Below, piece by piece: positions 1 through 20,916 of a stretch of DNA of 64,000 nucleotides. The stretch comes from Acidobacteriota bacterium. Its GTDB lineage: Bacteria > Acidobacteriota > Terriglobia > Bryobacterales > Bryobacteraceae. Within the stretch, counting starts at the first letter, position 1. The number at the start of each line of letters is the position of its first letter. The position numbers and the translations under genes were made by a program. The stretch covers positions 62,001-126,000 of the forward strand of contig JACPNQ010000027.1 in the NCBI GenBank assembly GCA_016185425.1, written 5' to 3'. Below the pieces are notes generated by a model, which did not search any database, was not told where the DNA came from, and worked only from the letters and a program-made list of their open reading frames with translations.

Positions 1-2
1 GT

Positions 3-674
3 GCCACCTGCGGGACGGTCGCGGCGCCGCTTACGTGCACTGTGAATGTCGGGGTGAATCTCTTGTACACGTTCGGCGGGTTCTCGGTTTCTGCGGCCAG
101 CGGGTCGCACATTTATACAGGAGCCGATATCGCCATTGACGTGGCGACCGGAGGAGGGAACACCGGCTTGCTGACGTTTAGCAAGGTTGTCAATGCCAAT
201 GGTTCCTCGTTTCTTGCAAATCCCGGCGAATCGAGTTCCTTTACATTTACGTATACCGCGGCCGTCTCCGCGGTGAACCCGGGCACCGCAGCATTTGGAA
301 CGCCAGGTATCGTCAACATTGGTCAGGCGAATGCGAACGGGACCGGACTCGGAGCCGTGCAGATGCTACTGTTGAACCCACCGAATGCGACGTCTTGCCA
401 GGCATTCATCAACTCCGCATCCACAACGCAGGGCGTCTGCAATGCTTTGCCGCCGGGAACGACCAATGTGCTGACTGTTGGAGATATTGTCACCTTATCC
501 GCGGGCAACGGGACTGGCACCAACAATGTCGGCGTCCTTTCATTCAGCAATCTGCTCTCGGCAACCTTCTCGGCGGCTCCGGCCGGAGGCGATGTCCCCG
601 AACCATCGACATGGGTGACGCTCGGGATTGGACTAGCGGGAATCGCGACAATCAAAGCCGGTCGCGGAAGGTAA
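3..674 (+). CDS. PEP-CTERM sorting-domain protein, 5' end outside window
   Basis: The reading frame is open from the window edge, so the gene starts upstream; the first in-window start codon (GTG at 42) is probably internal. The visible part is Gly/Ala/Thr/Ser/Asn-rich and low in charge, as in exported surface proteins. It ends in a PEP-CTERM signal: VPEPST, a hydrophobic segment (VTLGIGLAGIA), then a short basic tail (KAGRGR). In known systems this tripartite tail directs exosortase-dependent processing and export with exopolysaccharide. No exosortase gene is in the window. The last 23 bases overlap the 3' end of the convergent BLUF gene. The sorting signal is clear; the substrate or role of the mature protein is unknown. 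Confidence 0.85.
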   Translation, partial: ATCGTVAAPLTCTVNVGVNLLYTFGGFSVSAASGSHIYTGADIAIDVATGGGNTGLLTFSKVVNANGSSFLANPGESSSFTFTYTAAVSAVNPGTAAFGTPGIVNIGQANANGTGLGAVQMLLLNPPNATSCQAFINSASTTQGVCNALPPGTTNVLTVGDIVTLSAGNGTGTNNVGVLSFSNLLSATFSAAPAGGDVPEPSTWVTLGIGLAGIATIKAGRGR

Positions 675-1037
675 TGATCAGATCGCGGACGAGTTCCGGA
701 TCGCCGAGTAGACCGGGTGCGGTGATCGATTCCCGGTGGCCGGTGGTGTTCAGGTTGACGAATGCCATCGACCACCCGGCGAATTGCCGGTGCCGGACGG
801 GGTGGTCGAGGAGCGTTTTGAAGCCGCCGTGGCGGGGATCTCCACTATTGGCGCGGTAGAGTTTCGCACAAGGGTGTCGTCGCCTTCGAGAACCTGGAGG
901 AAGCTTCGGTCCTGATACAAGAGCATTCCGGTAACGCCAATTTGGTCATTCCTGGCGCGGGATTGTTGGAGGAGGGGGAAGAGGTCGCTCGTCTTGAAAA
1001 GGGAAGTGGCGATGCTGGTATAGGCGAGGGAGATCAT
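652..1037 (-). pseudogene. BLUF-domain blue-light photoreceptor, single frameshift
   Basis: The first ~58 codons read as a canonical BLUF domain, with the flavin-site Tyr (LAYTS), Asn (ARNDQIGVTGMLLY) and Gln (SFLQVLEG). After EGDDTLVR the frame is lost near 860-864. Reading on in the next frame restores the family sequence: LYRANSGDPRHGGFKTLL, then DHPVRHRQFAGWSMAF, to a TGA at 652-654. The span (386 nt, 3n+2) fits one missing base. Restored, the protein would be ~128 aa, a stand-alone BLUF sensor binding FAD. It lies 58 bp downstream of the methyltransferase on the same strand. Either a recent pseudogene or an assembly indel. Confidence 0.8.
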
Positions 1038-1095
1038 CTGTAGGGGGTCTTATCGGCTGGAACGCGCTGCGGTTGAGGGGAAGTGGCTAGCCGGA

Positions 1096-1818
1096 CTAGA
1101 GCTTGGTTGCGATGATCGCGGCGCATTCGCGGCCGTCGAGGAACAGGCTGGCGGGGAGGTCGCGGCGCCGATAGAGGTAGGCCTCGTCCACTTGGAGACC
1201 GGCCGCTTCGACCTTTTTGCGGAGCGTGATGTCGTCGAGCAAATGGATGCTCTGCGGGATCTGGCCGAGCTTGCGGTGCGTGGAGTATTCCTTTGTGTCT
1301 TCCAGCCAACCTGGCCATTCGGCACCTTCCTTACGGCGGCTTTGGAAGACGGGCACAAAATCCTTGAACGGCTGTTGCCAGGGGGTGGAAGCCTGGATGA
1401 ATAGTCTGCCGCCGGGGCCAAGCCAGTGGGCGATGGAGGCGAAACCCTGTTCAAGTTGGGGGCCCGTGAGGAAATGCAAAACGTTGGAGGCGTGGACGGC
1501 GGAGAGGCTGGATTCGGCGAGCTTGAGATGGCGGGGAAAGCGCCCGGGAATGAGGATGAGGCGGCGGGCTTGATCGGGAGTGGCGGAGTGGGCGATGTGT
1601 GAGAGGTGGGAGGCTTCGAGGTCGTTGGCGATGACGGTGGCGCCGGTCTCCAGCGCCGCGAGGGTTGCGATTCCGAATGCGGCGCCGATGTCGAGTACGG
1701 GGAGGGCCACAGAACGGCAATGGGCCACGAACCGCTCACTGATTTCATTGAGCTGATTCGAGGCCCATCCGGTTTGGTTATGAGTGGGTATCCGGCGGTG
1801 GCGTAGAGGAGGGGGCAT
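1096..1818 (-). CDS. Class I SAM-dependent methyltransferase
   Basis: 240 aa. The Rossmann-type SAM-binding motif I is at residues ~41-50 (VLDIGAAFGIAT), followed by the acidic end of beta2 (VIANDLEASHL) and a motif-III-like GPGGRLFIQAS around residues 134-144. These are hallmarks of class I methyltransferases; the substrate cannot be told from sequence. The C-terminal third (KLGQIPQSIHLLDDITLRKK...) is the likely substrate-recognition part. The start lies 12 bp beyond the stop of the upstream exported-protein gene and 58 bp precedes the BLUF gene, so the three leftward genes may be co-transcribed. No unusual residues seen. Confidence 0.8.
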   Translation of the reverse strand: MPPPLRHRRIPTHNQTGWASNQLNEISERFVAHCRSVALPVLDIGAAFGIATLAALETGATVIANDLEASHLSHIAHSATPDQARRLILIPGRFPRHLKLAESSLSAVHASNVLHFLTGPQLEQGFASIAHWLGPGGRLFIQASTPWQQPFKDFVPVFQSRRKEGAEWPGWLEDTKEYSTHRKLGQIPQSIHLLDDITLRKKVEAAGLQVDEAYLYRRRDLPASLFLDGRECAAIIATKL

Positions 1819-1830
1819 GCCCCTTACAGT

Positions 1831-2769
1831 TTAGCGATGGCGGTATCCGCCGCCACCACGGATGATGACTCGCGGCCCGCCGTAATAGTAGCGGGGACCC
1901 CAATTGCCGTAGTAGCTGGGTCCCCACCAGAGGCTGGGACCACCGTAGAAGTAGGGATTATATCCGAAGCCGCCGCCGTAGTAATACGGGCGAGGCTGCG
2001 GAGCCGGCCGGCGGTCGATCTGCCGCTGCTCATAATCGGTCTGCCGCACAGGTTGGAACGCCTGTGCCGCGCGTGCGGTGTTGATCGTAATCGGCTCCAG
2101 AATCCGGAATGTCACTACCGTTTCCGGATAAATCTCCGTAGCCCGGCCGCGAGTGGCAAGAACGCCGATGCCGGCTGCGCCCGCTCCGGCGATCGCTCCC
2201 ATACCCGCGCCGAAACCACCGGCCGCCGCCGCGCCTATTGCGGCGCCGATTCCTGCCGTGGTGCCTACCGCGGCGGCATCGCGTCCCTTAGACGTTCCGC
2301 CGTTATACTCGACGAGTTGCGTGCGGAGGTGCGCCTGCTGGCCGTCGGCCAAACCGACTTCGGTTAGCTCCAGGCCGAGCCGCGAGGTGCCTTTGGCGCG
2401 TCCGGCTTTAATGGCATCTGTCACCCTGCCTTCGATTGTCTGGCCGCGATGGGCCACAACAAATCCGTCGGCAACAAGCGGCTGCACGAGTGTGCCGCTG
2501 AAGTGATCGCCCGTCAGGTTACGGTCAGACGAAAGGGGCTGATCGACCCGGATTTTTATCCAGGAGCCTGCGGGGATGGTGATCTGGTTGGGAAGCGCGC
2601 GGTCGAAATTGGGACCGTCACTCTGGTAGGCAGGTGCGCGCTGCGGCTGTTGCCGCTGTTCTTCGATAGGCGGAGCGGGAGGAGCCGATTCCGGTTCGGC
2701 GGGCGGTTGAGCCCACGCTGTAGCCGCGAGCAGTGCGGCGCTAATGGTAAGTAGGAATTGCGTTTTCAT
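1831..2769 (-). CDS. Exported protein with glycine-zipper region and Tyr/Gly-rich tail
   Basis: 312 aa from the ATG at 2769, chosen because a good signal peptide follows (MKTQFLLTISAALLAATAWA) and a GGGAG ribosome site lies just upstream; a longer frame to 2940 would bury the signal peptide. Order: signal peptide; Pro/Gln-rich linker; a beta-rich central domain (~residues 60-150; IPAGSWIKIRVDQPLSS, TIEGRVTDAIKAGRAKG); a glycine-zipper-like hydrophobic stretch (GTTAGIGAAIGAAAAGGFGAG); then a tail dense in Tyr, Gly, Pro and Trp ending RVIIRGGGGYRHR. Similar exported proteins are common in Acidobacteria, function unknown. Probably envelope-associated. Confidence 0.75.
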   Translation of the reverse strand: MKTQFLLTISAALLAATAWAQPPAEPESAPPAPPIEEQRQQPQRAPAYQSDGPNFDRALPNQITIPAGSWIKIRVDQPLSSDRNLTGDHFSGTLVQPLVADGFVVAHRGQTIEGRVTDAIKAGRAKGTSRLGLELTEVGLADGQQAHLRTQLVEYNGGTSKGRDAAAVGTTAGIGAAIGAAAAGGFGAGMGAIAGAGAAGIGVLATRGRATEIYPETVVTFRILEPITINTARAAQAFQPVRQTDYEQRQIDRRPAPQPRPYYYGGGFGYNPYFYGGPSLWWGPSYYGNWGPRYYYGGPRVIIRGGGGYRHR

Positions 2770-2918
2770 GGAGGATTCTCCCAGTTCGATAGAGGCAATT
2801 CGCATACCAAAACGGAACATTCTGATTCTAAGAGAGTTGTTTGGCGGGTAGCGTCCGGTGGATTGGTGGAAGGGTAGCAGAATGGTTGGTTTCAGCCACC
2901 CGTCGCGGTTACGAAAGC

Positions 2919-2949
2919 AAACGGCCCGTGCTTGAGGCACGGGCCGTTT
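2919..2949 (-). terminator. Intrinsic-type hairpin after the TonB receptor gene
   Basis: A perfect 13-bp inverted repeat, AAACGGCCCGTGC and its complement, with a 5-nt loop (TTGAG). It sits 20 bp past the stop of the leftward TonB-receptor gene. Reading leftward, the stem ends in TTT and is followed by a T-rich GCTTTCG rather than a long T run. A strong stem with a modest U tract: probable rho-independent terminator. Confidence 0.75.
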
Positions 2950-2969
2950 AAGCGTTGGTTTGTTCCTGG

Positions 2970-5900
2970 TTAGAAACGATAGATCAACGACAGTTGCACG
3001 AGCCGACGGCCATTAATTCCGTTGGACGTCAGACGGCCGAAGGTGGTGCTGGTGATCGTGTAGTCACCCGATACGTCGAAGGTCGGATGGTTAAGGATAT
3101 TCGACGAGTCCATACGGAACTCGATGGTGTGTCCTTCCTTAATTTGCGTGACCTTCTGTGCCGAGAAGTCCAGATCGAAGTTCCATGGCCCGGAGAAGTA
3201 GCGCCGTTGCAGTGTGCCGATCGTTCCGGCATTGGGTTGGTAGAAAGCCTGGCCCTGGAATGGAGCCCCGCCATCCGCATTCACGCCGCGGTTATCCGGA
3301 CCGATCGCCGAAGCGGCGACGATAAATGGGCCGCTTCCCGTCATGCGGTAGGCGATGACATCGTCAAGCTGCGATTTGGAGAGAAGGGATACCGCGGTGT
3401 TGGTCGCCGTCGAGCGGGCACCGCGATTGAAAGTCCCACGGCCCGACAGTATGGAGAACGGCGAACCGGACTGCCACGTCATAATACTGCCGATATTCCA
3501 ACCACTCACAATGCGGCTGACAACGGGATTGCCGGGATTCCAGTTGTGACCCTTGCCAAAAGGCAGTTCATAAACACCGTTCGCCCGAATGACGTGGGTG
3601 ACGTCGAAGATCGCGCGGGCGCGTTCGATTTTGCCGTTATTCACATCCAGGAATGGGTCGAAGCGCGTCTGGCTGTCGCCCGAGGTATCGGACATCACCT
3701 TGCCGTAGGTGTAGTTTCCCTGGAGTTGAACTCCGTTGCGCATCTTGCGGCGGGCGTCGACTTGCAGTGAATTGAAGGAAGCATGGCTGTAGTTATCGAA
3801 CAGGTTCATGCCGAGTCCGTAGGGGTTCGCAAAGAAGTTGACGTTCCCATTCAGCCGGTTGACCTGATAGGTCGTAGCGAGTTCGCCCGGCTGCTGAGTC
3901 TGGATCAAGCCGCGAATGGTAGCGTTGGTCAGCAAGCCTCCGCTGGGAAGGGCGTTAAAGAACGGTGTCTGCTGGCTGCCCGGCACTGCGGCGTTGTACG
4001 CCGGATCGAAGCCGCGCCCTGCATTCTGGGCCAGAATGCCGTTATTGTAAGCTCGGCGGAAATCGTCCAAATAACCAGGAGCGCTGATGTTGACTTGGTT
4101 GGTGTCGAACGCGCGATACTGTTTCACCGCGTGGTTGCCGACATAACGGACTTCCAAAATGGTTTCCTTGATGTTTTGCTGAATGCCGATGGAGTACTGC
4201 TGGACATACGGCGTCCGGAGATTTGGATTGACGAGGGCCTGTGCGTTCCCGGTGTCGAGAGCATAATTGTCAGCCGGCGTGCGCGGAACTTTATAGGGCG
4301 GCGTGGCGATACTGCCGGCATTGGATAGGCGGGAAGTGAGGCCCGAGCCGCTGACCGTCGAGGTCAGACCCGAATTTGTTGTGACACTATTCCGGATGGA
4401 TACGATGTTTTCGTCGTTCACGAAGTTGATGGAATATCCGCCCCGGATGGCCGTCTTTCCCTTGCCGAATGGATCATAGGCAAAGCCGAAATTCGGCGCG
4501 AAGTTATTGCGGTCCGGGTTGTACCATGGGCGACCGACGGCGGAGCCAGCGAAGTCATACAGCGGATTTCCGAGAAGGAGAGAACGCGCATTGTCCGTGG
4601 TGATGCCTTGTGGCAGCAGGAACAGCGCATCGCTTTCGTCAACGCGAGTGTAGTAGTCGTAGCGGAGGCCCAGGATAAGCGAGAGTTTCGGGGTGACTTT
4701 CCAGGTATCCTGCCCGTAGAGGCCCCAATTGGACTGTTTGAAGTGGCGTAGATTAGTGGCCCCATCGACGAAACCCGAAGTGCGGCTCGTAACGTTGAAT
4801 GTCTGTGAAGAGCTCGAAACAAGCCCGGCGAGATTCGCGAGTAGCGCGTTTGCATTGCTAAGATCGGCGGCACTGATGCCAGGGAGCTGATTGGAACTTA
4901 AGCCGAACTGGCTGTTGGCCGAGATGCCCAGCGTGAATGTCGGTGTGATGCCAGCATCGTTATAAGGGGTAACGGACAACTTCTGATACTGGAATCCGTA
5001 CTGGAAGCTGTGCTTTCCCTTGACCGTGGTGGCGTTGTCCTGGAGGTTATAGGTATTCGTCTCGCGGCCTTGCGCACGGAATGTGTTGACGGGGTTGCTG
5101 TAGAGGAGCCCTCCAACGAGATATTTGCCGAAGGATTCCGAGGTGGCAAAGGGCGCGGTGGTCAAGTTGAAACCGCCGCGCAGTTCGTTGGTCGTGTGCG
5201 CGGCCGGTGTCCAGCGCCAAGTGAGAGACAATAAGCGCGGTGCGCTGTCGTTTGTTACTTTCGGTACCGCCGAGTAGTCGTTGGACTGATCGGGACGATC
5301 GAGAATATCCCGATTCCACAAAAAACTCGCCGAGAAGTTGTTCTTCGTGTTCAGGTAGTAATCGAGCTTCCCGGTAACGTTGTCGCGGGTCCGATTATTG
5401 CGCGAGTTGAACGAGTAGCCAGCCGTATTACGAATGAGCGCATCGCTCGAATCGCCATTACGGAAATTGTTGATTTTATCGGCCGTCGGCACAGCGTCCA
5501 GTAGCGCCTTCGCCGCAGGATCCATCGAGAGCCCCACTGTCTGCAGCACGTTGACCTTGCGCACCTGCCCGCCGGCGACGTAGGTGAAGATTCCGTTCCG
5601 GGCGTCTGCCGACAGGATAGTCGTGTTTCGAAGCGTCTGCTGCCTGTTGCGGAATCCTTCGTAGTTGCCGAAGAAGAACAGCTTGTCCTTAATGATCGCG
5701 CCTCCGAGCGATCCGCCGAACTGATTCTGATTCAGGAACGGCTTCGCGACGCCGTCCCGGTTGTTGAACCAATTGCTGGCCGCGGCCACGTTATTGCGGT
5801 TGCTCCAGAAAACATTCCCGTGATACTTGTTCGTGCCGGACGGCGTCACAAAATTGATCTGGCCTGCGCCGCCGCTCTGGCTGAGATTGTTGTTGGAGGT

Positions 5901-6554
5901 GCCAATGTTCACTTCCGCGACCTGGTCGAGCAGAAGGAGGTTGGGCTGAAAGTCGATACCGTTCGTGCGGATGAAGTTGTCCTGAATGTTGATGCCATCG
6001 AGCGTAATGTTCACGAACGAAACACGGAGGCCGTTGATAGTCGTGGACGATCTGGGGTTGGTCGTGATGCCTGTTTGCGTCAGCAGCAGCGCAATGGGGC
6101 TGCGATTGATCGTGGGAAGCCGCCGCAGCTGCTCATTTGTAATCGTGGACGAAATCTCGGCGTTATTGGTCTGAACCGCCTGCGTCGCGGCAGTGACTTC
6201 GACAACCTCCGTCACAGCCCCGAGTTCGAGCTTTACGTTCCCAAGGGGCGTCTCTTGCGAAGGATTGATCTTCACGCCGCGCACAGCGTTTTTGCGGAAG
6301 CCACTGGCTTCAAGAGTGACGTCATAGGTCTCCGGACGCAGAGATGGGAACAGAAAAAACCCCTCCGCATTGGTTACGGAAGAAGCTATCGGGGCGGAAC
6401 CACCCTGGAGGATTAACTTAACGTTGGCGTTGGCGATCGGCGCGCCTGATGGATCTACGACGCTACCGGAGAGCCTTCCAGCTACTTGCGCGGTCGCGAT
6501 GGCGGACGAGGCGAGCAAAAATGCGCAGAGCGCATTCGCGAGATTTTTAGACAT
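2970..6554 (-). CDS. TonB-dependent receptor with N-terminal carboxypeptidase-regulatory domain (Oar-like)
   Basis: 1194 aa. A signal peptide (residues 1-22, ending ATA/Q) is followed by a carboxypeptidase-regulatory-like beta-sandwich (~25-110: GRLSGSVVDPSGAPIANANV, YDVTLEASGFRK), a plug domain (~130-260, with INGLRVSFVNITLDGINIQD) and a long C-terminal beta-barrel ending in aromatic YRF, as outer-membrane barrels do. Such receptors import large ligands (oligosaccharides, peptides, siderophores) powered by TonB/ExbBD; none of those partners is encoded here. An AGAGGG ribosome site precedes the ATG. A paralogue of the same architecture lies at 32.5-36.0 kb. Substrate unknown. Confidence 0.92.
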   Translation of the reverse strand: MSKNLANALCAFLLASSAIATAQVAGRLSGSVVDPSGAPIANANVKLILQGGSAPIASSVTNAEGFFLFPSLRPETYDVTLEASGFRKNAVRGVKINPSQETPLGNVKLELGAVTEVVEVTAATQAVQTNNAEISSTITNEQLRRLPTINRSPIALLLTQTGITTNPRSSTTINGLRVSFVNITLDGINIQDNFIRTNGIDFQPNLLLLDQVAEVNIGTSNNNLSQSGGAGQINFVTPSGTNKYHGNVFWSNRNNVAAASNWFNNRDGVAKPFLNQNQFGGSLGGAIIKDKLFFFGNYEGFRNRQQTLRNTTILSADARNGIFTYVAGGQVRKVNVLQTVGLSMDPAAKALLDAVPTADKINNFRNGDSSDALIRNTAGYSFNSRNNRTRDNVTGKLDYYLNTKNNFSASFLWNRDILDRPDQSNDYSAVPKVTNDSAPRLLSLTWRWTPAAHTTNELRGGFNLTTAPFATSESFGKYLVGGLLYSNPVNTFRAQGRETNTYNLQDNATTVKGKHSFQYGFQYQKLSVTPYNDAGITPTFTLGISANSQFGLSSNQLPGISAADLSNANALLANLAGLVSSSSQTFNVTSRTSGFVDGATNLRHFKQSNWGLYGQDTWKVTPKLSLILGLRYDYYTRVDESDALFLLPQGITTDNARSLLLGNPLYDFAGSAVGRPWYNPDRNNFAPNFGFAYDPFGKGKTAIRGGYSINFVNDENIVSIRNSVTTNSGLTSTVSGSGLTSRLSNAGSIATPPYKVPRTPADNYALDTGNAQALVNPNLRTPYVQQYSIGIQQNIKETILEVRYVGNHAVKQYRAFDTNQVNISAPGYLDDFRRAYNNGILAQNAGRGFDPAYNAAVPGSQQTPFFNALPSGGLLTNATIRGLIQTQQPGELATTYQVNRLNGNVNFFANPYGLGMNLFDNYSHASFNSLQVDARRKMRNGVQLQGNYTYGKVMSDTSGDSQTRFDPFLDVNNGKIERARAIFDVTHVIRANGVYELPFGKGHNWNPGNPVVSRIVSGWNIGSIMTWQSGSPFSILSGRGTFNRGARSTATNTAVSLLSKSQLDDVIAYRMTGSGPFIVAASAIGPDNRGVNADGGAPFQGQAFYQPNAGTIGTLQRRYFSGPWNFDLDFSAQKVTQIKEGHTIEFRMDSSNILNHPTFDVSGDYTITSTTFGRLTSNGINGRRLVQLSLIYRF

Positions 6555-6652
6555 TTTGTACCCTCTGCTGAAGCAATTGCGGTCGTCATCCTTCCGCTAG
6601 CCGGGATGAACGCAATTTAAGAAATTGGTTCCCCTATTTTACAATGATCGGC

Positions 6653-7282
6653 TTAGAAATCGATGGACTGTAGGAGGTCGCTCGGTTTCTTGTCAAAAGC
6701 CTTGGAGATCGCCAGCAGGGATTCCATCGACGGCAGGTGCGCGCCCCGTTCGATAGCACTGATTTGGGAAACGCTCAGTTTCGTCGTCCCCGCGAGGTCT
6801 TTGAGCGACCAGTCATGCTCCACGCGGAGGACTTTGATGCGGTGGCCGAGACGCTCGCGCAGCCGATCCTGCGGTGTTTTCCCGAGGTCGCGCGTCTCGA
6901 CCGCGTGTTTCAGGACCTGACGAAGCTGAGCGAGAGAGAAAGGCTTGGTGATGTAATCAAACACGTTCATCTTGAACGTCGCGCGCATGTCTTCGTAGGA
7001 TGGATAACCCGTCACGACGATGACGCACAGACCGGGCCACCGCGACTGAAGTTGTTCCAGCACGACATCGCCTTTGAATTCCCCCATTTTCATATCCAAT
7101 AAAACAATGTCGGGGAGTTGCTGGTCGGCCGCGGCGAAAAGATCCTCCGGGTGCGCGAAGGTGCGAACGGAATAGGTGTCCTCATCCTTGAGGACGTCTT
7201 CCATGTAGTTGCGGAAGTCGAGGTCGTCATCGAGTACGGCGATGTCGATGAGCGTCTCTGATTGCTGGGATTCAGCCGCCAT
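6653..7282 (-). CDS. Response regulator with REC domain and XRE-type HTH output
   Basis: 209 aa. Residues ~12-125 are a receiver domain with the acidic cluster D18-D20, phospho-acceptor D63 (VLLDMKM), T91 (VVTGYPS) and K113 (DYITKPF). Residues ~141-203 form a Cro/C1 (XRE)-type helix-turn-helix (LRVEHDWSLKDLAGTTKLS, SQISAIERG, PSMESLLAISKAF). This pairing is uncommon; receivers usually carry winged-helix, LuxR or Fis outputs. The gene follows its kinase by 14 bp in a leftward operon whose upstream side faces the ACIII-caa3 respiratory operon. It is therefore a candidate transcription regulator of that operon, which is inference. Confidence 0.9.
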   Translation of the reverse strand: MAAESQQSETLIDIAVLDDDLDFRNYMEDVLKDEDTYSVRTFAHPEDLFAAADQQLPDIVLLDMKMGEFKGDVVLEQLQSRWPGLCVIVVTGYPSYEDMRATFKMNVFDYITKPFSLAQLRQVLKHAVETRDLGKTPQDRLRERLGHRIKVLRVEHDWSLKDLAGTTKLSVSQISAIERGAHLPSMESLLAISKAFDKKPSDLLQSIDF

Positions 7283-7296
7283 GGGTACAGGATAGA

Positions 7297-8727
7297 TCAG
7301 GCCGGGTTTGGGGCGGCTTCCGGCAAGCGGATTTCAATGCGCGCGCCGCCGTTTGCATTATTCGATGCGGTGATCGTGCCGCCATGCTGCTGGATGATGC
7401 CTTCCGTTACCGTCAGTCCGAGGCCGGTACCGCGGGAGTCGAGACGCGTCGTGATGAAGGCCTCGAAGATATCGGGCAGCACATCTTCGGGGATGCCCGG
7501 TCCATTGTCCTCCACAGTAATTGCCCACCAACGTCCAAGAGTGGCGGCGTATGGTGTGGCTGCGACGCGAATCTGGCCGTCGGACTCGGGGATCGCCTGG
7601 AGCGCATTACGCAGCAGGTTGACGAAGACCTGGATCAGACGATCGGGATTACCGATAAGCCGGCAGTCCGCGGGCACTGCGTTTTCAAAATGGGCCGCGC
7701 CCGACTTTTCGTCCAACGCAAGCAAACTCCAGGCTTCGTCGATCAGCGGACGGATCGAGACTGGTTCGCTACGCTGCTTGCGGACGCGTGCGAAATCCAG
7801 CAGGCCTTCGCTGATCGAACGGAGCCGCGTGGCGACACGCTGCATTCTCAGTAGCCGCTCCTGGGCGCTCGCCGATTTTACCGTTTCCAGAAGCTTTTCG
7901 ATGGAGCCCTGGAGGACGGCCAACGGGGTATTCAGTTCGTGAGCCACGCCGGCACTGAGCATGCCCAGGCTGGCGAGGCGATCCTGGTCGGCGAGACTTT
8001 GCTTTGCGTTTTCGAGGCGCGCGAGCGCGGCTTCGAGATCCTCTTCGCGCGACCGAAGTTGTTCCACCGTGCTGTTGCGGGATAGCATGATCTGACCGAT
8101 TTCGTCGCGGGGGATATAAGCCGGCGGAATGATTTCGTTGGCACGATCTCCCGTCATTACGGAATAATCCGCGGCAAGCATTGCGCGCAACGGCCGATAG
8201 ACATAGAGCGGCATGATGACCAGCTCAAGCAGGAGTACGGCAAGAATGTAAATCACACCCAGAACGACGAAAAGCGCGGTTCGGATCAGAATCAAGGCCT
8301 GGCGGTAGTATTCGTTGGGCAGGCGGATCTTGCGGTAGGTGCCGGAATTGGGATTTTTCCGATATAGGTACTCATCCCTGGCGGAATCGCCGTGGATACG
8401 GCCGGGGTGATCGTCGAGCCAGATGCGAATTGGCGGTGAGATACCAAGCGTTTCCGGCGCGCCTTCTTCATACGAGTAAATTTCCAGGCCTGGGAGCCGT
8501 GGAAGGGGAGCGTCGGCCAGAAATGCCTGTGTGATCAAGCTAATTTCTCGCGATCGTGCGCCGGAGACCCTTTGCTCTAGTAGCGGGAAGACTGTAAAAT
8601 ACACGGAGCCGGTTAACACAAGAAAAAAGAGATTGTGCAGAATGATGAGCTTGAGGCGGACTTTAAGGTCGCCAAAGCGTTTGCCGAGGTAACCGGGATG
8701 GCGGTCTTCGGAGACGAAAAACTTCAT
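7297..8727 (-). CDS. Membrane sensor histidine kinase
   Basis: 476 aa. Two membrane segments (~residues 27-49 and 144-172) bracket a ~95-residue periplasmic sensor. Next come a HAMP-like linker, a coiled coil (~215-245), the HisKA box with phospho-acceptor H263 (GVAHELNTPLAVLQG) and an HATPase domain with N box (VNLLRNALQ), G1 (DNGPGIP, ~407-413), F box (IFEAFITT) and G2 (GTGLGL, ~433-438). All catalytic motifs are intact. The enzyme autophosphorylates His and should pass the phosphate to the receiver encoded 14 bp downstream. The signal sensed cannot be read from sequence; the respiratory neighbours make a redox, quinone or oxygen cue plausible. Confidence 0.92.
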   Translation of the reverse strand: MKFFVSEDRHPGYLGKRFGDLKVRLKLIILHNLFFLVLTGSVYFTVFPLLEQRVSGARSREISLITQAFLADAPLPRLPGLEIYSYEEGAPETLGISPPIRIWLDDHPGRIHGDSARDEYLYRKNPNSGTYRKIRLPNEYYRQALILIRTALFVVLGVIYILAVLLLELVIMPLYVYRPLRAMLAADYSVMTGDRANEIIPPAYIPRDEIGQIMLSRNSTVEQLRSREEDLEAALARLENAKQSLADQDRLASLGMLSAGVAHELNTPLAVLQGSIEKLLETVKSASAQERLLRMQRVATRLRSISEGLLDFARVRKQRSEPVSIRPLIDEAWSLLALDEKSGAAHFENAVPADCRLIGNPDRLIQVFVNLLRNALQAIPESDGQIRVAATPYAATLGRWWAITVEDNGPGIPEDVLPDIFEAFITTRLDSRGTGLGLTVTEGIIQQHGGTITASNNANGGARIEIRLPEAAPNPA

Positions 8728-8742
8728 AAGGGGACGTCGAAA

Positions 8743-8759
8743 TTCTTGTCAAACAAGAA
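8743..8759. promoter_or_regulatory. Inverted repeat, possible operator between kinase and act operon
   Basis: TTCTTGT-CAA-ACAAGAA is a perfect 7-bp inverted repeat, 15 bp upstream of the kinase start codon. It lies in the 209-bp divergent spacer between the two-component operon and the respiratory operon. Symmetry of this size suits a dimeric HTH regulator such as the XRE-output response regulator. The repeat is seen; its role is inferred. Confidence 0.4.
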
Positions 8760-8773
8760 ATTTTCTCTCGTTT

Positions 8774-8786
8774 GCAGAATTTCTGC
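8774..8786. promoter_or_regulatory. Second inverted repeat in the same divergent spacer
   Basis: GCAGAA-T-TTCTGC, a perfect 6-bp inverted repeat, 14 bp from the first one. It overlaps the -35-like hexamer of a weak rightward promoter match (TTCTGC at 8781-8786, 17-bp spacer, TATGAA at 8804-8809). Possible operator for the act-cox operon; function inferred. Confidence 0.35.
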
Positions 8787-8809
8787 ACCTATGGTAGAAG
8801 TAGTATGAA
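8781..8809 (+). promoter_or_regulatory. Candidate promoter of the act-cox operon
   Basis: TTCTGC, 17-nt spacer, TATGAA: a weak sigma-70-like match about 130 bp upstream of actA. It is the best-spaced pair I found in the spacer, but the -35 element is poor. Activation by a bound regulator at the adjoining inverted repeats would fit a weak -35 box. Confidence 0.25.
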
Positions 8810-8936
8810 AACCTGCAATGGGGAGCGCGGGTTGCAACACGTCCACTTCCAAATCCAAGCTATCATGATTTGCCAAACAGCCCTGGCACGAGCAGCCTCC
8901 GGGACTCGTGACTGGAGAGGAGCCGTAGTCTAGGCA

Positions 8937-9584
8937 ATGGGACAGATATTTTCGAAGAAGATTGACCTGATGATCCGCGTTGGTTTGCTGGTGGCGGGCA
9001 TCGGGGCGGCGGCGACGGCCGGGGGGGTGCTGTTCCTGCACCATCCGAAACGGATCGAACCGGGGTACCAGCCGACACAGCCGATACCGTATAGCCATAA
9101 ACTGCACGCGGGCAACCTCGGTTTGGACTGCTTGTACTGCCACAATACAGTGGACAAGAGCTCCTACGCGGCAATTCCTTCCACCCAGACTTGCATGAAC
9201 TGCCATAGCAAGGTGAAAGGGCAGAGTATCGTGCTGGAGCCTGTGCGGAAGAGTTTTGAGCTCGATCAGGCGATCCCGTGGGTGAAGGTCCACCGGCTGC
9301 CCGACTATGTGTATTTCAACCACAGCGCCCATGTGAATTCGGGCGTAAGCTGCGTGAGTTGCCATGGGCGAATCGACCAGATGGTGGAAGTCAAACAGGT
9401 GCAGCCGCTGACGATGGCGTGGTGCCTGGAGTGCCATCGAAACGCGGCGCCGAACATTCGGCCGGCCGAGTTGGTGACGAAGTTGGACTGGAAGGCGGAA
9501 CGCGATCCGTCGGAGATCGGGCGGGAGATCATGGCTGTGAAAAAGATTAATCCTCCGACGAACTGCTCGGGGTGCCACCGATGA
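8937..9584 (+). CDS. actA: ActA, pentaheme cytochrome c subunit of alternative complex III
   Basis: 215 aa. One N-terminal membrane anchor (~residues 11-34) and five CXXCH heme sites: C65 (CLYCH), C86 (CMNCH), C139 (CVSCH), C163 (CLECH) and C210 (CSGCH). Five hemes plus a single anchor is the ActA pattern. In ACIII this subunit relays electrons from the quinol-oxidising core to the cytochrome c acceptor on the periplasmic side. It is the first gene of a 13-gene rightward cluster. Its stop codon overlaps the actB start (ATGA), implying translational coupling. The ribosome site is weak. Confidence 0.95.
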   Translation: MGQIFSKKIDLMIRVGLLVAGIGAAATAGGVLFLHHPKRIEPGYQPTQPIPYSHKLHAGNLGLDCLYCHNTVDKSSYAAIPSTQTCMNCHSKVKGQSIVLEPVRKSFELDQAIPWVKVHRLPDYVYFNHSAHVNSGVSCVSCHGRIDQMVEVKQVQPLTMAWCLECHRNAAPNIRPAELVTKLDWKAERDPSEIGREIMAVKKINPPTNCSGCHR

Positions 9585-12574
9585 TTCAGATACAAGGAAT
9601 TGGAAACCAGACCGGAAAGAAATTCTGGCGTAGTCTAGAAGAACTCTCGAATTCGCCGAAGTTTCAGAAGTGGGTTGCGCAGGAGTTTCCTGAAGGCGCG
9701 ACCGATGTGTTGGATGGAAAGTCGCGGCGCAACTTTTTGCAGTTGATGGCGGCTTCGATGGGCATGGCCGGTTTGACGGCTTGCCGCCGTCCTGTTGAAA
9801 AGGTTCTGCCCTACGCCAAGTCGGTGGAAGGCGTGGTGATGGGCAATTCGCTCCATTTCGCCACGGCAATGCCGTTTAACGGGCGCTCCTATGGGTTGGT
9901 TGTCGAATCGTTCGACGGGCGTCCTATTAAGATCGAGGGCAATCCGGGCCATCCGGCGAGCCGCGGGGCGGCAAATTCGCTGGCGCAGGCTTCGGTTCTG
10001 AACCTATATGATCCGGACCGTTCGAAAGAAGTTCTGGAAGGTGGTAAAGCGTCGAGTTGGGACGCGTTCAGCAAGGCTGCGGCGGCGCTGCCGGCCGATG
10101 GTGACGGCGTCCGGATTCTGAGCACCTTTGTGAATTCGCCCACGCTGAGCGGGCTTCGCACGCAGTTGGCGGCGAAGATGCCGAAGGCGAAGTGGGTAGA
10201 GTACGAAGCGATCTCGGACGACGCGATTCTGGAAGGATCGCAGATCGCGTTTAACGATTCCCTGCGGCCGCACTACGATTTCAAGAAGGCGAACATCGTT
10301 GTCGCGCTGGATTCGGATTTTCTGCAGCTCGACAACCGGTCACTCGGCTGGGTGAAGGACTTTACTGCCCGGCGCAAACCGGCGCACAAGGCGGAAGAAG
10401 GAGTGCACGGGGCAGCCGGTGCCCCTCCCCCGGCAGAACACGCCGCCGATCCTGGCGTGAACCGGCTTTACGCGATCGAGCCGAACTTCACACTGACCGG
10501 CATCATGGCCGATAACCGGCTGCGCATCAAGCCTAGCGACGTGCAGAACTTCGTGTTCGATCTGGCGCGCGAGTTGGGCGCCATCGCCGGGTTGAAGGTG
10601 CTGGGCCAACAGGACAAGTGGATCAAGGCGCTGGCGAAGGACTTGCAGGCGAACAAAGGCAAGTCGGTTGTTCTGGCCGGGCCCCGGCAGCCGGCAGTAG
10701 TTCACGCGGTTGTCGCGCTCATTAATCAGACGCTTGGCAACAGCGGCGAAACGATCCTTTATACGAAGGAAGAGCGCCGGCCGGTATCGGCGTTGAAGGA
10801 TCTGACGGCTGACTTGAACAGCGGCGCTGTCAAGGCGCTGCTCGTGCTCGGTGGCAATCCGGTTTACGACGCCCCGGCCGATTTCGCGTTCGGCGACGCG
10901 ATGAAGAAGGCCGCGAATTCGATTCATCTCGGCGCGGAAGTGAACGAGACCGCGGCTGTGGCGAAGTGGCATCTGCCGGAGTCACACTACCTGGAAACAT
11001 GGGGCGATGTGGCGAATCTGGATGGCACCGTTTCGCTGATACAGCCGTTGATTGAGCCGCTTTTCGGCACCAAATCCGCCGTGGAAGTGGTGAGCTTCCT
11101 GGTGTCGGGCAAATGGAACAAGGGTTTCGACCTGGTGAAGGCGCAGACTAAGCTGGACGACGCCGCGTGGCGCAAGGCGCTGCATGGCGGAGTTGTGGCG
11201 GGAACAGGTCCAGCGCCTGCCAAGAGCGGTGCGGACAAAGGAAAGGTCGAGGCTGCTGTGAATGCCGCCCCGAAGGCGGGCGCGAAGATCGAAGTCTCGT
11301 TCATCCCGAGCGCGAGCTTCTGGGATGGCCGCTTTACGAATAACGCGTGGCTGCAAGAGGCGCCCGACCCAGTGACGAAGCTGGTCTGGGACAACGCCGC
11401 CCTGATGAGCCCGAAGACGGCGAAAGAGCTACAGGTCGAGATCATCCCCGATAACGTCGGCATGTACGCGCAGAAGATCAACGTCGAAATCGGCGGGCAG
11501 AAGGTGGAAGCTCCGGTGTACGTGTTGCCGGGCCACGCCGACGGCGCGATAACCCTGGTCATGGGCTACGGCCGCCAGAGCATCGGCCGCGTCGGACGCG
11601 GAATCGGCTACAACGCATTTGCCGTGCGCAATTCCGCGGGCATGGGCTTTACGACCGCCGCGAACGTGACGAAGGCTCCCGGCACCTATTACATGGTGAC
11701 GACGCAGGAGCACCATAGCCAGGAAGGCCGCCCGATCGTCATGGAAGCGACGGTCGCCAAATACGAAAAGGAACCGCATTTCGCCAAGGAAGAAGAGGAG
11801 CATGTCGAGCTCTTCTCGCTGTTTACCGAGCACGACTACTCCAAGGGCAATCAGTGGGGGATGTCGGTAGACTTGAACGCCTGCATCGGCTGCAACGCCT
11901 GCCTGCTGGCCTGCCAGAGTGAGAACAACATTCCGGTTGTCGGCAAAGAACAGGTCGGCAAGGGCCGCGAAATGCACTGGATTCGCCTGGACCGGTACTT
12001 CACCGGCGACGAGGAAGATCCACAGGCCGTCTACCAGCCGATGGCGTGCCAGCACTGTGAGAACGCGCCCTGCGAATCGGTTTGCCCGGTCGCCGCCACT
12101 ATCCATAGCCCCGAGGGCTTGAACGACATGGCGTACAACCGCTGCGTCGGCACGCGATACTGCGCCAACAACTGCCCGTACAAGGTGCGCCGTTTCAACT
12201 ACCTGAACTTCCATAAGGACATGGATGAGTTGACGAAGATGTCGCAGAATCCGGACGCCTCTGTGCGCATGCGCGGCGTCATGGAAAAGTGCACGTACTG
12301 CGTGCAGCGCATTCAGGAAGCCAAAATCAAAGCGAAAGCGGAAGGGCGCGCGTCGGGCGCGGCTGGTCCCTACAAGGTGGGCGAGATTCTCACCGCCTGC
12401 CAGCAGACTTGCCCGGCCGACGCGATCGTCTTCGGCAATATCAACGACCCCGAATCGAAAGTGGCGCAGCTCAAGAAGGACCACCGTAACTACTCGCTGC
12501 TCCATGAACTGAACGTGAAGCCGCGCACAACCTATCTGGCAAAGCTGCGCAATCCCAATCCGGAGCTGGCGTAA
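9581..12574 (+). CDS. actB: ActB, molybdopterin-oxidoreductase-like / iron-sulfur subunit of alternative complex III
   Basis: 997 aa from the ATG at 9581, which overlaps the actA stop; an in-frame GTG lies at 9572. The N-terminal ~700 residues resemble the large subunit of molybdopterin oxidoreductases, which in characterised ACIII has lost its molybdenum cofactor. A Tat-like [12 protein letters not shown] followed by a lipobox-like LTAC sits unusually far in (~45-70), as in other ActB proteins. From ~765 on is a ferredoxin-type domain with four cysteine clusters ([42 protein letters not shown]...[13 protein letters not shown]). The fused B1-B2 form is usual. Electrons from quinol pass through these clusters to the hemes. 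Confidence 0.95.
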
Positions 12575-14034
12575 TGGCGGAAATCACTCACGCTGCGCTT
12601 AACCCGCACGCACAGGAAATGAAGGAGCGGCTGTCGCCGTCACTGACTACCGGCCATCCGTCGATGCATGACGTGACCGAGGCGGTCAGCATCATTTCGG
12701 AAGTTAAGACTCACCGCAACTGGTACATCGCGCTTGCGGTTACGGGCAGCATCACCGGCATTCTCGGGCTGATGCTCGCCTATCTGGTCGCAACGGGCGT
12801 CGGCGTCTGGGGCAACAACGGCCCGGTCGGCTGGGGCTGGGACATTACGAACTTCGTGTTCTGGATCGGCATCGGCCACGCCGGTACACTGATTTCGGCG
12901 ATTCTCTTCCTGTTCCGGCAAAAGTGGCGGACGTCGATCAACCGCTTCTCCGAAGCGATGACGCTGTTCGCCGTGGCCTGTGCCGGCATCTATCCGGCCG
13001 TTCACGTGGGCCGTCCCTGGCGCGCCTACTGGCTGTTCCCGATTCCCAACGAATTTCTGAACATGTGGCAGAACTTCCGCAGTCCGCTGCTTTGGGACGT
13101 ATTCGCGGTTTCGACGTATGCCACCGTTTCGGCGCTGTTCTGGTACGTCGGCCTGATCCCGGATCTGGCAACCATCCGCGACCGGGCGGTGACCAAGGGC
13201 CGGCAGATGGCTTACGGCATCGCGAGCCTTGGGTGGCGCGGGTCGGCAACGCACTGGAAGAACTACGAAAAGGCGTACATGATTCTGGCGGGCCTTTCGA
13301 CGCCGCTGGTGCTTTCCGTGCACACCATCGTGTCGTTCGACTTTGCGGTTTCGATTCTCCCCGGTTGGCACACGACGATCTTCCCACCCTACTTCGTCGC
13401 GGGCGCTATCTTCTCCGGATTCGCGATGGTGGTGACATTGATGGTCATCGCGCGATGGATCTACAAGGTCGAGCATCTGGTCACGATGACGCACCTGGAG
13501 AACATGAACAAGGTCATCCTCGCCACCGGCACAATCGTCGGTTACGCGTACGCGACCGAGTTCTTCATCGCCTGGTACAGTGGCAACCCGTATGAAAGCT
13601 ACGTCTTCTTCGTCAGCCGGGCAACCGGTCCTTATTGGTGGGCCTATTGGACGATGATCACCTGCAACGTGATTTCGCCACAGTTCTTCTGGTTCAAGAA
13701 ACTGCGGACAAACATCCCGTTCATGTTCGCGATTTCGATTGTCGTCAACATCGGCATGTGGTTCGAGCGTTTCGTGATTATCGCGACGAGTTTGCACCGC
13801 GACTTCCTGCCGGCATCCTGGGGCTACTTCCGGCCGACTTTCGTCGACATCCTGACGTTCTTTGGCACGTTCGGTCTGTTCTTGACGCTCTTCGTTTTCT
13901 TCACCCGCTTCCTGCCGATTATCGCGATGAGCGAAGTGAAGGGCATGATGTCGGCGACACGCCACGAGCAGCATTACCTGGATGAAGCGGTCGACGCTTC
14001 CGAAGGAAAGGTTCTCGAAGGAGGGGCGCACTAA
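12574..14034 (+). CDS. actC: ActC, NrfD-like quinol-binding membrane subunit of alternative complex III
   Basis: 486 aa polytopic protein of the NrfD/PsrC family, with about ten hydrophobic segments between residues ~45 and 460. Conserved-looking stretches include [28 protein letters not shown] and [19 protein letters not shown]. ActC and ActF form the membrane arm where menaquinol is oxidised. The start overlaps the actB stop (TAATG), and its own stop overlaps the actD start. The soluble N-terminus (~40 residues) and the C-terminal tail ([17 protein letters not shown]) are cytoplasmic-looking extensions. No missing residues noticed. Confidence 0.95.
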
Positions 14035-14573
14035 TGGCTGACAATCCTTCCATTCACGGGTTGGTGGCGGACTTCGATTCACCGGACAGGCTGATGGACG
14101 CCGTCAAGGCAGCCCGCAAAGCGGGCTACACGAAGATGGAAGCCTACACGCCGTTTCCGATTCACGGGATCGATGACGCGATGGGCGCAAAGCCTTCGAT
14201 CCTTGGCTACCTGGTGCTACTTGGATCGGCTACGGGCCTCGGACTTGCGATTTGGTTGCAGTGGTGGACCGGCGCCGTCGACTATCCGCTGGTTATCGCC
14301 GGCAAGCCGTTCTTTGCATTCGAACCTTCGGTCCCGATCATGTTCGAGTTGACCGTACTGCTCTCGTCATTCGTGGCGGTGTTCGGCATGATTGGCCTGA
14401 ATGGGCTACCGAAGTTGTACCACCCCATCTTCAACTACACGGGGCATAAGGGAATCACTGACGACCGGTTCGTACTGGTGATCGAAGCGAGCGATCGCGA
14501 GTTTGATGCAACCGGTACGCGGGATTTTCTGGCGGCCCAAGGCGCCGGCAAACTGGAATTGATCGAGGCTTAG
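14034..14573 (+). CDS. actD: ActD, DUF3341 membrane subunit of alternative complex III
   Basis: 179 aa, DUF3341 family. A soluble N-terminal part (HGLVADFDSPDRLMDAVKAA, then YTPFPIHGIDDAMG, typical of ActD) is followed by two membrane segments (~residues 58-78 and 98-120) and a short soluble tail. ActD is a structural subunit of ACIII without cofactors. It overlaps the actC stop by one base and ends 3 bp before actE, so it is translated as part of the operon. Confidence 0.93.
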   Translation: MADNPSIHGLVADFDSPDRLMDAVKAARKAGYTKMEAYTPFPIHGIDDAMGAKPSILGYLVLLGSATGLGLAIWLQWWTGAVDYPLVIAGKPFFAFEPSVPIMFELTVLLSSFVAVFGMIGLNGLPKLYHPIFNYTGHKGITDDRFVLVIEASDREFDATGTRDFLAAQGAGKLELIEA

Positions 14574-14576
14574 CGA

Positions 14577-15185
14577 ATGCGACTGGTATCCACATTACTT
14601 ATCGTCGCGGCTGCCGCCGGACTCGCCGGCTGCGGTCCTGGTGCGGGCAAGGACACACCGCCGCTTTGGATTATTCCTGACATGAAAGTGCAGGAGAAGT
14701 ACAAGCCGCAGCAGGAGAGCCCTTTGTTCGCGGACCGCTCGGCGAGCCGCCGGCCCGTCGTTGGGACCGTTTCGCAAGAAAACTATTACGAGGACGAAGG
14801 CTACCACTTCGGCATCGTGAACGGACAGTATATCGGCAAGAACCCGCTGGAGTTCAACGACAAGGTTTTGAAGCATGGGCAGAGGAAGTTCAACACGTAC
14901 TGCTCGCCTTGCCATGACCGAACGGCCTCCGGCGGCGGCATTGTAGGCAAGCGCGCCGGCGCCGTGTTCCAACCCGCCAATCTGCATAAGCAGGAGATTC
15001 GGGACAAGAACGATGGCGAACTATACTCGGTTGCCAGCGACGGACGCCGCACGATGATGGGCTATCGCAATCAGATTTCGGACTATGACCGCTGGGCAGT
15101 CATTGCTTACCTTCGGGTTTTGCAGCGAGCCGGCGGCGCCAAGATGGAAGACGTGCCTGAGAACCTGCGTTCGGAGGTGCGATAA
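14577..15185 (+). CDS. actE: ActE, monoheme lipoprotein cytochrome c of alternative complex III
   Basis: 202 aa. A lipoprotein signal peptide (VAAAAGLAGC, lipid-modified Cys ~19) is followed by a mono-heme cytochrome c domain with one CXXCH (CSPCH, ~residue 112) and a distal-ligand region around GRRTMMGYRNQISDYDRW with a candidate Met. ActE collects electrons from ActA and hands them to the terminal oxidase on the periplasmic face. It lies between actD and actF as in other ACIII operons. Confidence 0.93.
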   Translation: MRLVSTLLIVAAAAGLAGCGPGAGKDTPPLWIIPDMKVQEKYKPQQESPLFADRSASRRPVVGTVSQENYYEDEGYHFGIVNGQYIGKNPLEFNDKVLKHGQRKFNTYCSPCHDRTASGGGIVGKRAGAVFQPANLHKQEIRDKNDGELYSVASDGRRTMMGYRNQISDYDRWAVIAYLRVLQRAGGAKMEDVPENLRSEVR

Positions 15186-15190
15186 ACAAA

Positions 15191-16408
15191 ATGAGCCATT
15201 CTCACCACCACACCGCGCCCCAGGACAGTTACGTCATTCCAGACGCAATTTGGGATCGCGGCCGCAACGTACTGGGCGCCCTGTTTTTGCTCGGATGGGG
15301 CGCTGCCCTGGCGGGTTACGCTTCCAACCACGATCAGTTCTTCCAGTCTTATCTCGTCGCGTTCTTCTTCGGGTTCTCCATCGTAGTCGGCGGGACGCTC
15401 TTCGTCATGATCCAGCACCTGACCGGATCGGCCTGGAGCGTGCCGGTGCGCCGCATCATGGAGACGATCATGATGTCGTTCCCGGTGTTGGCGCTGTTGT
15501 TCATTCCGGTCGCCCTCGGGGTGCACTCGCTGTACGAGTGGTCGCATCCGGATTTTGTGGCGAAAGAGATCATGAAGCTGAAGGTCTCGGTCTACCAGCA
15601 CTACCTGAACGAGAAATACTTCTACATCCGCGCCGTCGCGTTCTTTGCGATCTGGACGCTCTGGGCATGGCGGCTGTATTCGAATTCGAAGTCGCAGGAC
15701 ACGACGAACGCGCTGCAGCCCACCTTCTCGAACGAGAAATGGAGCGCGCCAGGTATGTTGGTCTTCTTCCTGACGGCCTCTCTCGCGAGCGTCGACTGGA
15801 TAATGTCTCTGAACCCGCACTGGTATTCGACGATGTTCGGCGTCTACTGCCTGGCAGGCGGAGCCTGGGGCTTCTTCGCCCTGCTGACGTTCATCTTCCT
15901 GCGCTTCCGGGCCAACGGCATCATGGCCAACTCGGTTACCACTGAGCACTATCACGATCTCGGCAAGTGGATGTTTGCGCTAACGGTCTTCTGGGCCTAT
16001 ATCGCGTTCTCTCAATACATGCTGATCTGGTACGCGAACCTGCCGGAAGAGACCATCTTCTTCAAGATGCGCCGGACCGGCACTTGGGAGGCCGTGAGCG
16101 GTGTGTTGCTGTTCGGCCACTTCGTCATCACCTTCCTGGTGCTGCTGGCGCGGAACAGCAAGCGAACGCTCAATGTCCTGAAGTTCGCCACCGTCTGGAT
16201 TCTGCTGATGCACTATGTGGACATCTACTGGATGGTCATGCCGAATTTCCACAAGGAAGGCATTGCATTGAGCTGGGTGGATGGCGCCGCGCTGGCTGCC
16301 GTTATCGGTACGCTGGGCTTGGCGTTCTGGCTACGTCTGAAGAACAAGATGATCGCGCCCGTCGGCGATCCTCGCTTCAAGAAAGGATTGGAGTTCCAGA
16401 ATGTCTAA
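15191..16408 (+). CDS. actF: ActF, second NrfD-like membrane subunit of alternative complex III
   Basis: 405 aa polytopic protein, about ten predicted membrane segments, family of quinol:cytochrome c oxidoreductase quinone-binding subunit 2. Recognisable stretches include SFPVLALLFIPVALG, NEKYFYIRAVAFFAIWTLWA, SLASVDWIMSLNPHWYSTMFG and YANLPEETIFF. It pairs with ActC in the membrane arm. The N-terminus is His-rich (SHSHHHTAP), which may bind metal or be incidental. The stop overlaps the next gene by 8 bp. Confidence 0.93.
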   Translation: MSHSHHHTAPQDSYVIPDAIWDRGRNVLGALFLLGWGAALAGYASNHDQFFQSYLVAFFFGFSIVVGGTLFVMIQHLTGSAWSVPVRRIMETIMMSFPVLALLFIPVALGVHSLYEWSHPDFVAKEIMKLKVSVYQHYLNEKYFYIRAVAFFAIWTLWAWRLYSNSKSQDTTNALQPTFSNEKWSAPGMLVFFLTASLASVDWIMSLNPHWYSTMFGVYCLAGGAWGFFALLTFIFLRFRANGIMANSVTTEHYHDLGKWMFALTVFWAYIAFSQYMLIWYANLPEETIFFKMRRTGTWEAVSGVLLFGHFVITFLVLLARNSKRTLNVLKFATVWILLMHYVDIYWMVMPNFHKEGIALSWVDGAALAAVIGTLGLAFWLRLKNKMIAPVGDPRFKKGLEFQNV

Positions 16409-16826
16409 TCCGGTGACAACCAAACAACCCGTTAGTGCCGAGCTCGGCTATGACCGTTCCGATCCGTTGATTGGCGCCATTCTCGCCAACATTTTCAGCA
16501 TCATCGTTATTCTGGCGGTGGTGATCGGCGGCGTTACGTTCTACTTCCATACCTATCGTGACCGGATCATCGAGGAAACACAGCTTACACCGGTATCCCA
16601 GGACCTCCTTGACTTGCGGGCGAAAGAAGATCAAACGTTAAATAGTTACGGCATTGTGGACAAGGCAGCCGGGACGGTCCGCCTGCCGGTCTCCCGCGCC
16701 ATGGAACTGGTGATGGCGGAAGCCAAGGAAGGCAAGCCGAAGTATCCCACCGCTCCTTATGCGGTGAAGAAAGTGGAAGAGGCCGCCGCCGCTCCTGCCG
16801 CGCCTGCCGCCGAACCCGCAAAGTAG
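16401..16826 (+). CDS. Small single-span membrane protein of the act-cox operon
   Basis: 141 aa, with one strong membrane segment (~residues 30-55, IGAILANIFSIIVILAVVIGG). A soluble domain follows, containing TVRLPVSRAMELVMAEA, and the tail is Ala/Pro/Glu-rich. It overlaps the actF stop by 8 bp and is followed 7 bp later by the SCO gene, so it is a true operon member. I do not recognise a characterised family. A small protein at this site is common in acidobacterial ACIII clusters, and an accessory or assembly subunit is the reasonable guess. Confidence 0.7.
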   Translation: MSNPVTTKQPVSAELGYDRSDPLIGAILANIFSIIVILAVVIGGVTFYFHTYRDRIIEETQLTPVSQDLLDLRAKEDQTLNSYGIVDKAAGTVRLPVSRAMELVMAEAKEGKPKYPTAPYAVKKVEEAAAAPAAPAAEPAK

Positions 16827-18577: not shown

Positions 18578-18591
18578 GGCGAGGAGGGAAC

Positions 18592-20241: not shown

Positions 20242-20243
20242 GA

Positions 20244-20909: not shown

Positions 20910-20916
20910 GAGATAT

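Follow-up and report, generated by a model that had tools for sequence, protein, structure and literature searches.

Membrane kinases that act in two-component control of respiratory genes are familiar from RegBA, PrrBA and ActSR, whose output domain is a Fis-type HTH; the locus described here resembles them in having a membrane kinase next to respiratory genes, but its regulator carries a Cro/C1-type HTH. In domain order, the regulator resembles DigR of Myxococcus xanthus, which works with the kinase SgmT and represents a rare but tested case of a receiver with a C-terminal HTH_Xre output (PMC3509222). DigR binds a palindrome as a presumed dimer and is an activator at fibA. It differs from the present system in several ways: its palindrome is TAATC-N14-GATTA, 24 bp in length and mapped at +1 to +24; its gene is an orphan; SgmT lies in the cytoplasm and carries GAF and GGDEF domains; and an oxidase role is absent from the part of its description available to us (PMC3509222). 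The original prediction that a receiver fused to a Cro/C1-type HTH is an unusual output is thus correct as to rarity, but such regulators are already known; as far as the available account of DigR goes, what sets this one apart is a different predicted site sequence and a different proposed role.

The neighboring respiratory genes also have described counterparts. In the ACIII-caa3 superoperons of Acidobacteriota, ACIII genes lie upstream of caa3 genes, the same order as here, and the available part of the study reports that expression shifts with O2 in other genera, its strains being Terriglobus, Acidobacteriaceae KBS 83 and A. capsulatum (PMC8407424). The term "two-component" has 0 occurrences in the text of that paper, and there is no REC-XRE match in the listed genomes of family f2. 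Nor did we find a dedicated regulator of alternative complex III or ACIII-caa3 in the open-access literature searched, which included papers on ACIII.

The window, that is, the whole 64-kb stretch of DNA analyzed, contains the following genes:

6653 to 7282, minus strand: REC-XRE response regulator gene, 209 aa (Pfam Response_reg and HTH_3)
7297 to 8727, minus strand: sensor histidine kinase gene, 476 aa (Pfam HisKA and HATPase_c)
8937 to 9584, plus strand: actA, multihaem cytochrome c (Pfam Cytochrome_C7), first gene of the operon
9572 to 16408, plus strand: actB, actC (NrfD), actD (PF11821), actE (cytochrome c) and actF (Pfam)
16401 to 16826, plus strand: 141-aa ORF between actF and SCO, with neither a Pfam nor an NCBIfam match
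16834 to 17625, plus strand: SCO1/SenC copper chaperone (Pfam)
17636 to 21330, plus strand: caa3 oxidase genes CoxB, CoxA, CoxC and subunit IV (NCBIfam)

The names actB, actE and actF follow operon order, actF being named by position with no Pfam match, and the caa3 genes match TIGR02866, TIGR02891 and TIGR02229 above cut-off and TIGR02842 below cut-off. The kinase-regulator pair is divergent from the actABCDEF-sco-coxBACD operon that starts at 8937, and the spacer between kinase and actA covers 8728-8936, 209 bp; the arrangement originally proposed, a kinase-regulator operon divergent from an ACIII-caa3 operon, is borne out by the Pfam and NCBIfam matches and by these coordinates.

The regulator consists of a canonical receiver, which contains the phospho-acceptor Asp as well as the switch Thr and Lys, and a C-terminal Cro/C1-type HTH. 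Pfam places Response_reg at residues 14-124 (E 1.1e-21) and HTH_3 at 149-203 (E 6e-11), and HTH_3, HTH_19, HTH_26 and HTH_31 are all above cut-off at residues 144-206. The receiver residues are D18-D20, D63, T91 and K113, the last three invariant among 43 homologues. The recognition helix, SVSQISAIERG, hardly varies, Phycisphaerales included; every aligned row fits S[VI]SQ[IVLM]S[SA]IERG. The AF2 model (mean pLDDT 87) has a receiver fold followed by five helices, and a fold search with this model returned receivers and other known regulator families, nothing new. Two familiar classes were rejected: NtrC/NtrX sigma-54 activators give the best receiver matches, but these cover the receiver and the AAA+ domain is absent from the 209-aa protein, while the ActR/PrrA/RegA redox regulator model NF033791 reaches 41.2 bits against a cut-off of 250, in the receiver only.

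Within its own genome, the regulator is the sole full-length match to itself, the next being receivers of at most 35% identity. Among genomes sampled from the family, 111 of 200 carry it (E up to 1e-20), as do 8 of 247 sampled from across the phylum. Scanning genome contigs yielded 78 loci, all titled Acidobacteriota except for four Phycisphaerales. The actA gene adjoins the pair in 30 of these 78 loci (31 with the window), and other REC-XRE genes adjoin a kinase alone or no kinase, for example beside ilv/leu-type genes (named from sequence). The cultured family member Acidobacteriaceae KBS 96 (L061) has kinase, regulator and act, with a degenerate operator. A regulator tree, with L122 left out, groups the proteins largely by gene context. 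Several loci show other layouts. In L064, L069, L076 and L118 (about 1-6600), a REC-XRE gene without a kinase lies beside ilvB/ilvN/ilvC/2-isopropylmalate-type synthase-like genes (named from sequence), while in genus g2 the kinase remains at act, so that the regulator and kinase of one pair live apart. In another group (L096 and L071, about 2400-4530), kinase and regulator are divergent from the gene of a large membrane protein that, judged from sequence, is similar to spermidine synthase-like proteins.

The kinase has two N-terminal hydrophobic stretches that flank a variable periplasmic region (topology by eye), followed by a cytoplasmic part (residues about 190-476) that includes HisKA, with H263, and HATPase_c. 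In an alignment of 38 kinases (the window's and 37 homologues), H31 in the first hydrophobic stretch is invariant, and the periplasmic region is absent from five (L067, L077, L083, L086 and L097). For these two reasons, our guess is that the kinase reads its signal, which may be quinone, heme or oxidase state, within the membrane. No RegB-type model occurs among its best 25 NCBIfam matches.

The spacer contains two perfect inverted repeats exactly where they had been claimed, TTCTTGT-CAA-ACAAGAA at 8743-8759 (palindrome 1) and GCAGAA-T-TTCTGC at 8774-8786 (palindrome 2). Palindrome 1 really spans 8742-8760, one base more on each side (ATTCTTGTC-A-AACAAGAAA); one further pair extends palindrome 2 to 8773-8787 (TGCAGAA-T-TTCTGCA), after which both repeats have 7-bp arms. 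Each palindrome sequence is found exactly once in the 6.64-Mb genome, and palindrome 2 has no other copy there at 0-1 mismatch. The repeats might reflect chance, or an autoregulatory element of the kinase-regulator operon only: the window holds 35 inverted repeats of like quality, so one alone is unremarkable, and palindrome 1 lies about 15 bp from the kinase ATG. Two or more such repeats fell in this spacer in 0.05% of 2,000 shuffles. The features of the spacer are as follows:

8742 to 8760, no strand: palindrome 1, the predicted operator and REC-XRE dimer site, centered at about -56 from the predicted act start
8763 to 8769, no strand: conserved stretch from operator to -35, by column conservation (family consensus TTGCTCC, here TTCTCTC)
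8772 to 8777, plus strand: act promoter -35 box TTGCAG (family TTGCGG), near-invariant columns 34-39
8773 to 8787, no strand: palindrome 2, a chance dyad over the -35 box
8792 to 8800, plus strand: extended -10 TGGTAGAAG, read as TG-G-TAGAAG (family TGGTAGAAA), near-invariant columns 54-62

The -35 and -10 hexamers are 17 bp apart, and act transcription would start at about 8807. Palindrome 2 had been described as overlying the -35 position of a weak promoter; its left arm is the -35 box and the promoter is conserved, but a consensus scan of the spacer misses this promoter, which is revealed by conservation among relatives.

That conservation comes from the same 200 family genomes, in which ActA falls into two types, one of high similarity (E up to 1e-80, 81 genomes) and one distant. 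Upstream regions were compared for 80 of the 81 high-type actA genes (G355, at a contig end, is unscored, and G265 was scored over 182 bp only) and for nine distant-type genes. These regions contain a 63-column element of fixed spacing made up, in order, of ATT[AC][CT]TG[TC]C-A-GACAAGAAT, TTGCTCC, TTGCGGAA and the extended -10; the first block is palindrome 1. The element is kept in 69 of the 89 regions, spanning 22 genera, and in most of these genera the distance from operator to actA promoter is fixed. Among all dyad centers tested, symmetry peaks at column 13; the left arm of this dyad is degenerate across the family, and covariation between the arms, tried as proof of symmetry, does not go beyond column composition. 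Conservation had been expected of both repeats. Palindrome 1 is kept, but the symmetry of palindrome 2 (at least 6 of 7 pairs) survives in just 2 of 69 sites, where otherwise the left half alone is kept, as the -35; we therefore rejected it as a second operator. On this comparative evidence, palindrome 1 is a well-supported predicted operator and palindrome 2 is a promoter box. A weaker dyad, TTNTAC-N7-GTAGAA, lies over the -10 (columns 43-61) in the act spacers of L107 and L103 and is kept in many act promoters.

Does the element follow the regulator and kinase? We scored it with a matrix built from other genera (leave-one-genus-out), taking as threshold 4.2, the top of all shuffles; score thresholds were chosen with the scores already seen. 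The element exceeds 4.2 in 67 of 72 REC-XRE-positive high-type genomes as opposed to 2 of 8 negative ones (Fisher p 3.8e-5, inflated by kinship, as are all p-values here), and in none of the nine distant-type regions. Among the five positives below threshold, G278 and G319 keep a recognizable site, while those of G423, G296 and G301 are weak. The six genomes that lack both element and REC-XRE gene (genera g150, g159 and g187) also lack the kinase beside act. The two REC-XRE-negative genomes with an element (G437 and G359) do have a kinase beside act, and we therefore presume that their regulator was missed, likely through a gap in the assembly or because the copy is distant. On the ActA tree, absence of the element corresponds to three changes, of which well-supported branches force only one.

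The element is also kept in 27 of the 28 genomes whose REC-XRE gene is not within 6 kb of act. Seventeen of these 28 keep the kinase next to act (G328 and G259 by weak matches of 27-28% identity); in the remaining 11 (genera g194, g203 and g210) neither gene is beside act and the operator is retained. With the operator at act and the regulator gene elsewhere, the regulator would act in trans, and no other observation points as strongly to such action on act as this retention (27 of 28 genomes). The spacer is indeed common to both operons, as first described, but the site within it belongs to act, since it stays there when the REC-XRE gene is elsewhere. Thirty-eight of the 111 REC-XRE-positive genomes are entirely without the high-similarity ActA type. 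Across the 78 loci and the window (875,642 bases), 26 sites score at least 18, all just upstream of the kinase start and all beside actA wherever the contig extends that far; no operator was seen beside REC-XRE genes located away from act. This pattern already largely refutes autoregulation as the main role. Given also the fixed distance to the actA promoter and the recurrence of the site before ctaB and cydA, described below, we consider it very improbable that the palindromes are a product of chance or serve the kinase-regulator operon only.

A family-wide search for the dyad found exact copies upstream of UbiA-type and SCO-like proteins in genus g189, in genomes without high-type ActA; here TTCTTGTCARACMAGAA precedes ctaB in 5 of 5 tested REC-XRE-positive genomes. 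In the window's own genome, the second-best site, TTCTTGTCAGACTAGAA at C16:130177, begins a ctaB-sco-DUF420 operon. The ctaB homologue matches Pfam UbiA, and we take this UbiA-type protein to be the heme O synthase CtaB/CyoE from its SCO and DUF420 neighbors and general knowledge of the family. Between the site and ctaB lies a 268-aa membrane-type ORF (L263:698-1504) whose position suggests a divergent heme A synthase; it has no significant Pfam match, and we rejected that assignment for want of Pfam support.

A ctaB match was present in 187 genomes, and to extend this, we scored the ctaB upstream regions of 89 of them with the act-promoter matrix. A score of at least 12.5 occurs in 31 of 52 REC-XRE-positive and 1 of 37 negative genomes (Fisher p 5e-9; Mann-Whitney p 7e-7 for scores of positives versus negatives); at a threshold of 16, the counts are 16 of 52 and 1 of 37. 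Overlap with a promoter-like TGC-N19-TAGAA makes nine of the 31 matches (g183, g186, g151 and g152) doubtful, and 21 of the 52 positives have no site near ctaB at 12.5. The sole negative genome with a site, G402, belongs to genus g189, whose other negative, G419, has none. Negatives were scanned over up to 2,000 bp and positives over 1,200 bp, a difference that works against the regulator-site claim. A larger regulon in the window's own genome was rejected: 23 places lie within one mismatch of TTCYTGYNNNRCARGAA (65 for a control pattern), and among the 10 places with loci that were scored, values above 19 are reached at act and ctaB alone; the third-ranking place (18.7, on C12) is inside an outer-membrane-protein-like gene.

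The site also occurs outside the Acidobacteriota. Phycisphaerales UBA7812 encodes a regulator 52% identical to the window's, and there a 17-mer identical to that of the window, TTCTTGTCAAACAAGAA, immediately precedes cydAB (cydA, PF01654, E 2.5e-161; cydB, PF02322, E 1.4e-104), with a matrix score of 27.7, higher than any act site; a weaker second copy lies 20 bp away. Since three further Phycisphaerales genomes gave no cydA match, the cydAB case consists of this single genome. UBA7812 has a second exact operator, L372:3568-3586, before a trypsin-like/BACON protein.

These observations bear on whether the operator might serve an unrelated transcription factor, with the REC-XRE pair co-traveling by descent. 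All of the evidence is comparative, and the three losses of the element may amount to few independent events, supported branches forcing one. Against this, kinase, regulator and site are lost together in all six genomes, the site persists where the regulator gene is elsewhere, in a genome of a second phylum with the same regulator, the identical 17-mer precedes genes for a different oxidase, and the dyad is of a size that suits an XRE dimer. We regard another factor as improbable. The link first proposed between REC-XRE and act-cox is strongly supported, in that the REC-XRE gene and palindrome 1 both show conservation alongside act, and loss of kinase and regulator is accompanied by loss of the site. 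Judged from sequence, it is likely that the kinase and REC-XRE protein control act-cox through the operator, and we have equally good confidence that the pair would be dedicated to terminal-oxidase genes.

How might this work? The membrane kinase would sense a signal inside the membrane near the invariant H31 and phosphorylate the REC-XRE protein, an XRE-domain dimer of which would bind the dyad next to the act promoter, on its upstream side (ATTCTTGTC-A-GACAAGAAT, 8742-8760), and raise transcription of actABCDEF-sco-coxBACD. The same regulator would also bind the second site in its own genome, ahead of the heme O synthase-SCO-DUF420 operon, and with both sites under its control, complex III, oxidase, heme O and copper delivery would be made together.

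The sign of control is suggested by the position of the operator. Counted by hand to the first base of the -10, the dyad center precedes it by 44 bp at act, by 24 bp at ctaA/ctaB-type sites of several g1, g2 and g153 genomes, and by 13 bp at g189; these steps of 20 and 11 bp approximate whole helical turns, with G254, G316 and G354 among the misfits. Cro/C1-type proteins are often repressors, and the regulator might repress act-cox, its release switching respiration on, or act both ways. The g189 operator, at about -25 from the predicted ctaB start, between -35 and -10, would suit repression, and for dual action there is the precedent of DigR, reported at induced and repressed promoters alike in the available part of that study (PMC3509222). 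On the other side, the act site is centered at about -56, with the -35 downstream of it intact, and several ctaA/ctaB-type sites in g1, g2 and g153 substitute for the -35 next to an extended -10, an arrangement typical of activators. Together, the upstream act site and the -35-replacing ctaB sites favor activation. We conclude that the regulator probably activates act-cox; repression or dual action seems unlikely, though with an appreciable chance.

More tentatively, and with somewhat less than even confidence, these systems may belong to an unrecognized family of oxidase regulators that spans phyla. Its members would combine an Xre-type response regulator, its recognition helix nearly invariant, with a kinase reading respiratory-chain state in the membrane, and would use a single operator at ACIII-caa3, heme O synthase/SCO and cytochrome bd genes in Acidobacteriota and Planctomycetota. 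Soils are rich in Acidobacteriota, whose oxidases function across a wide range of O2. With a defined kinase, regulator and 19-bp site, respiratory control in Acidobacteriota becomes a question for binding and reporter tests, and a recognizable operator is a means to seek oxidase regulons in uncultured relatives.
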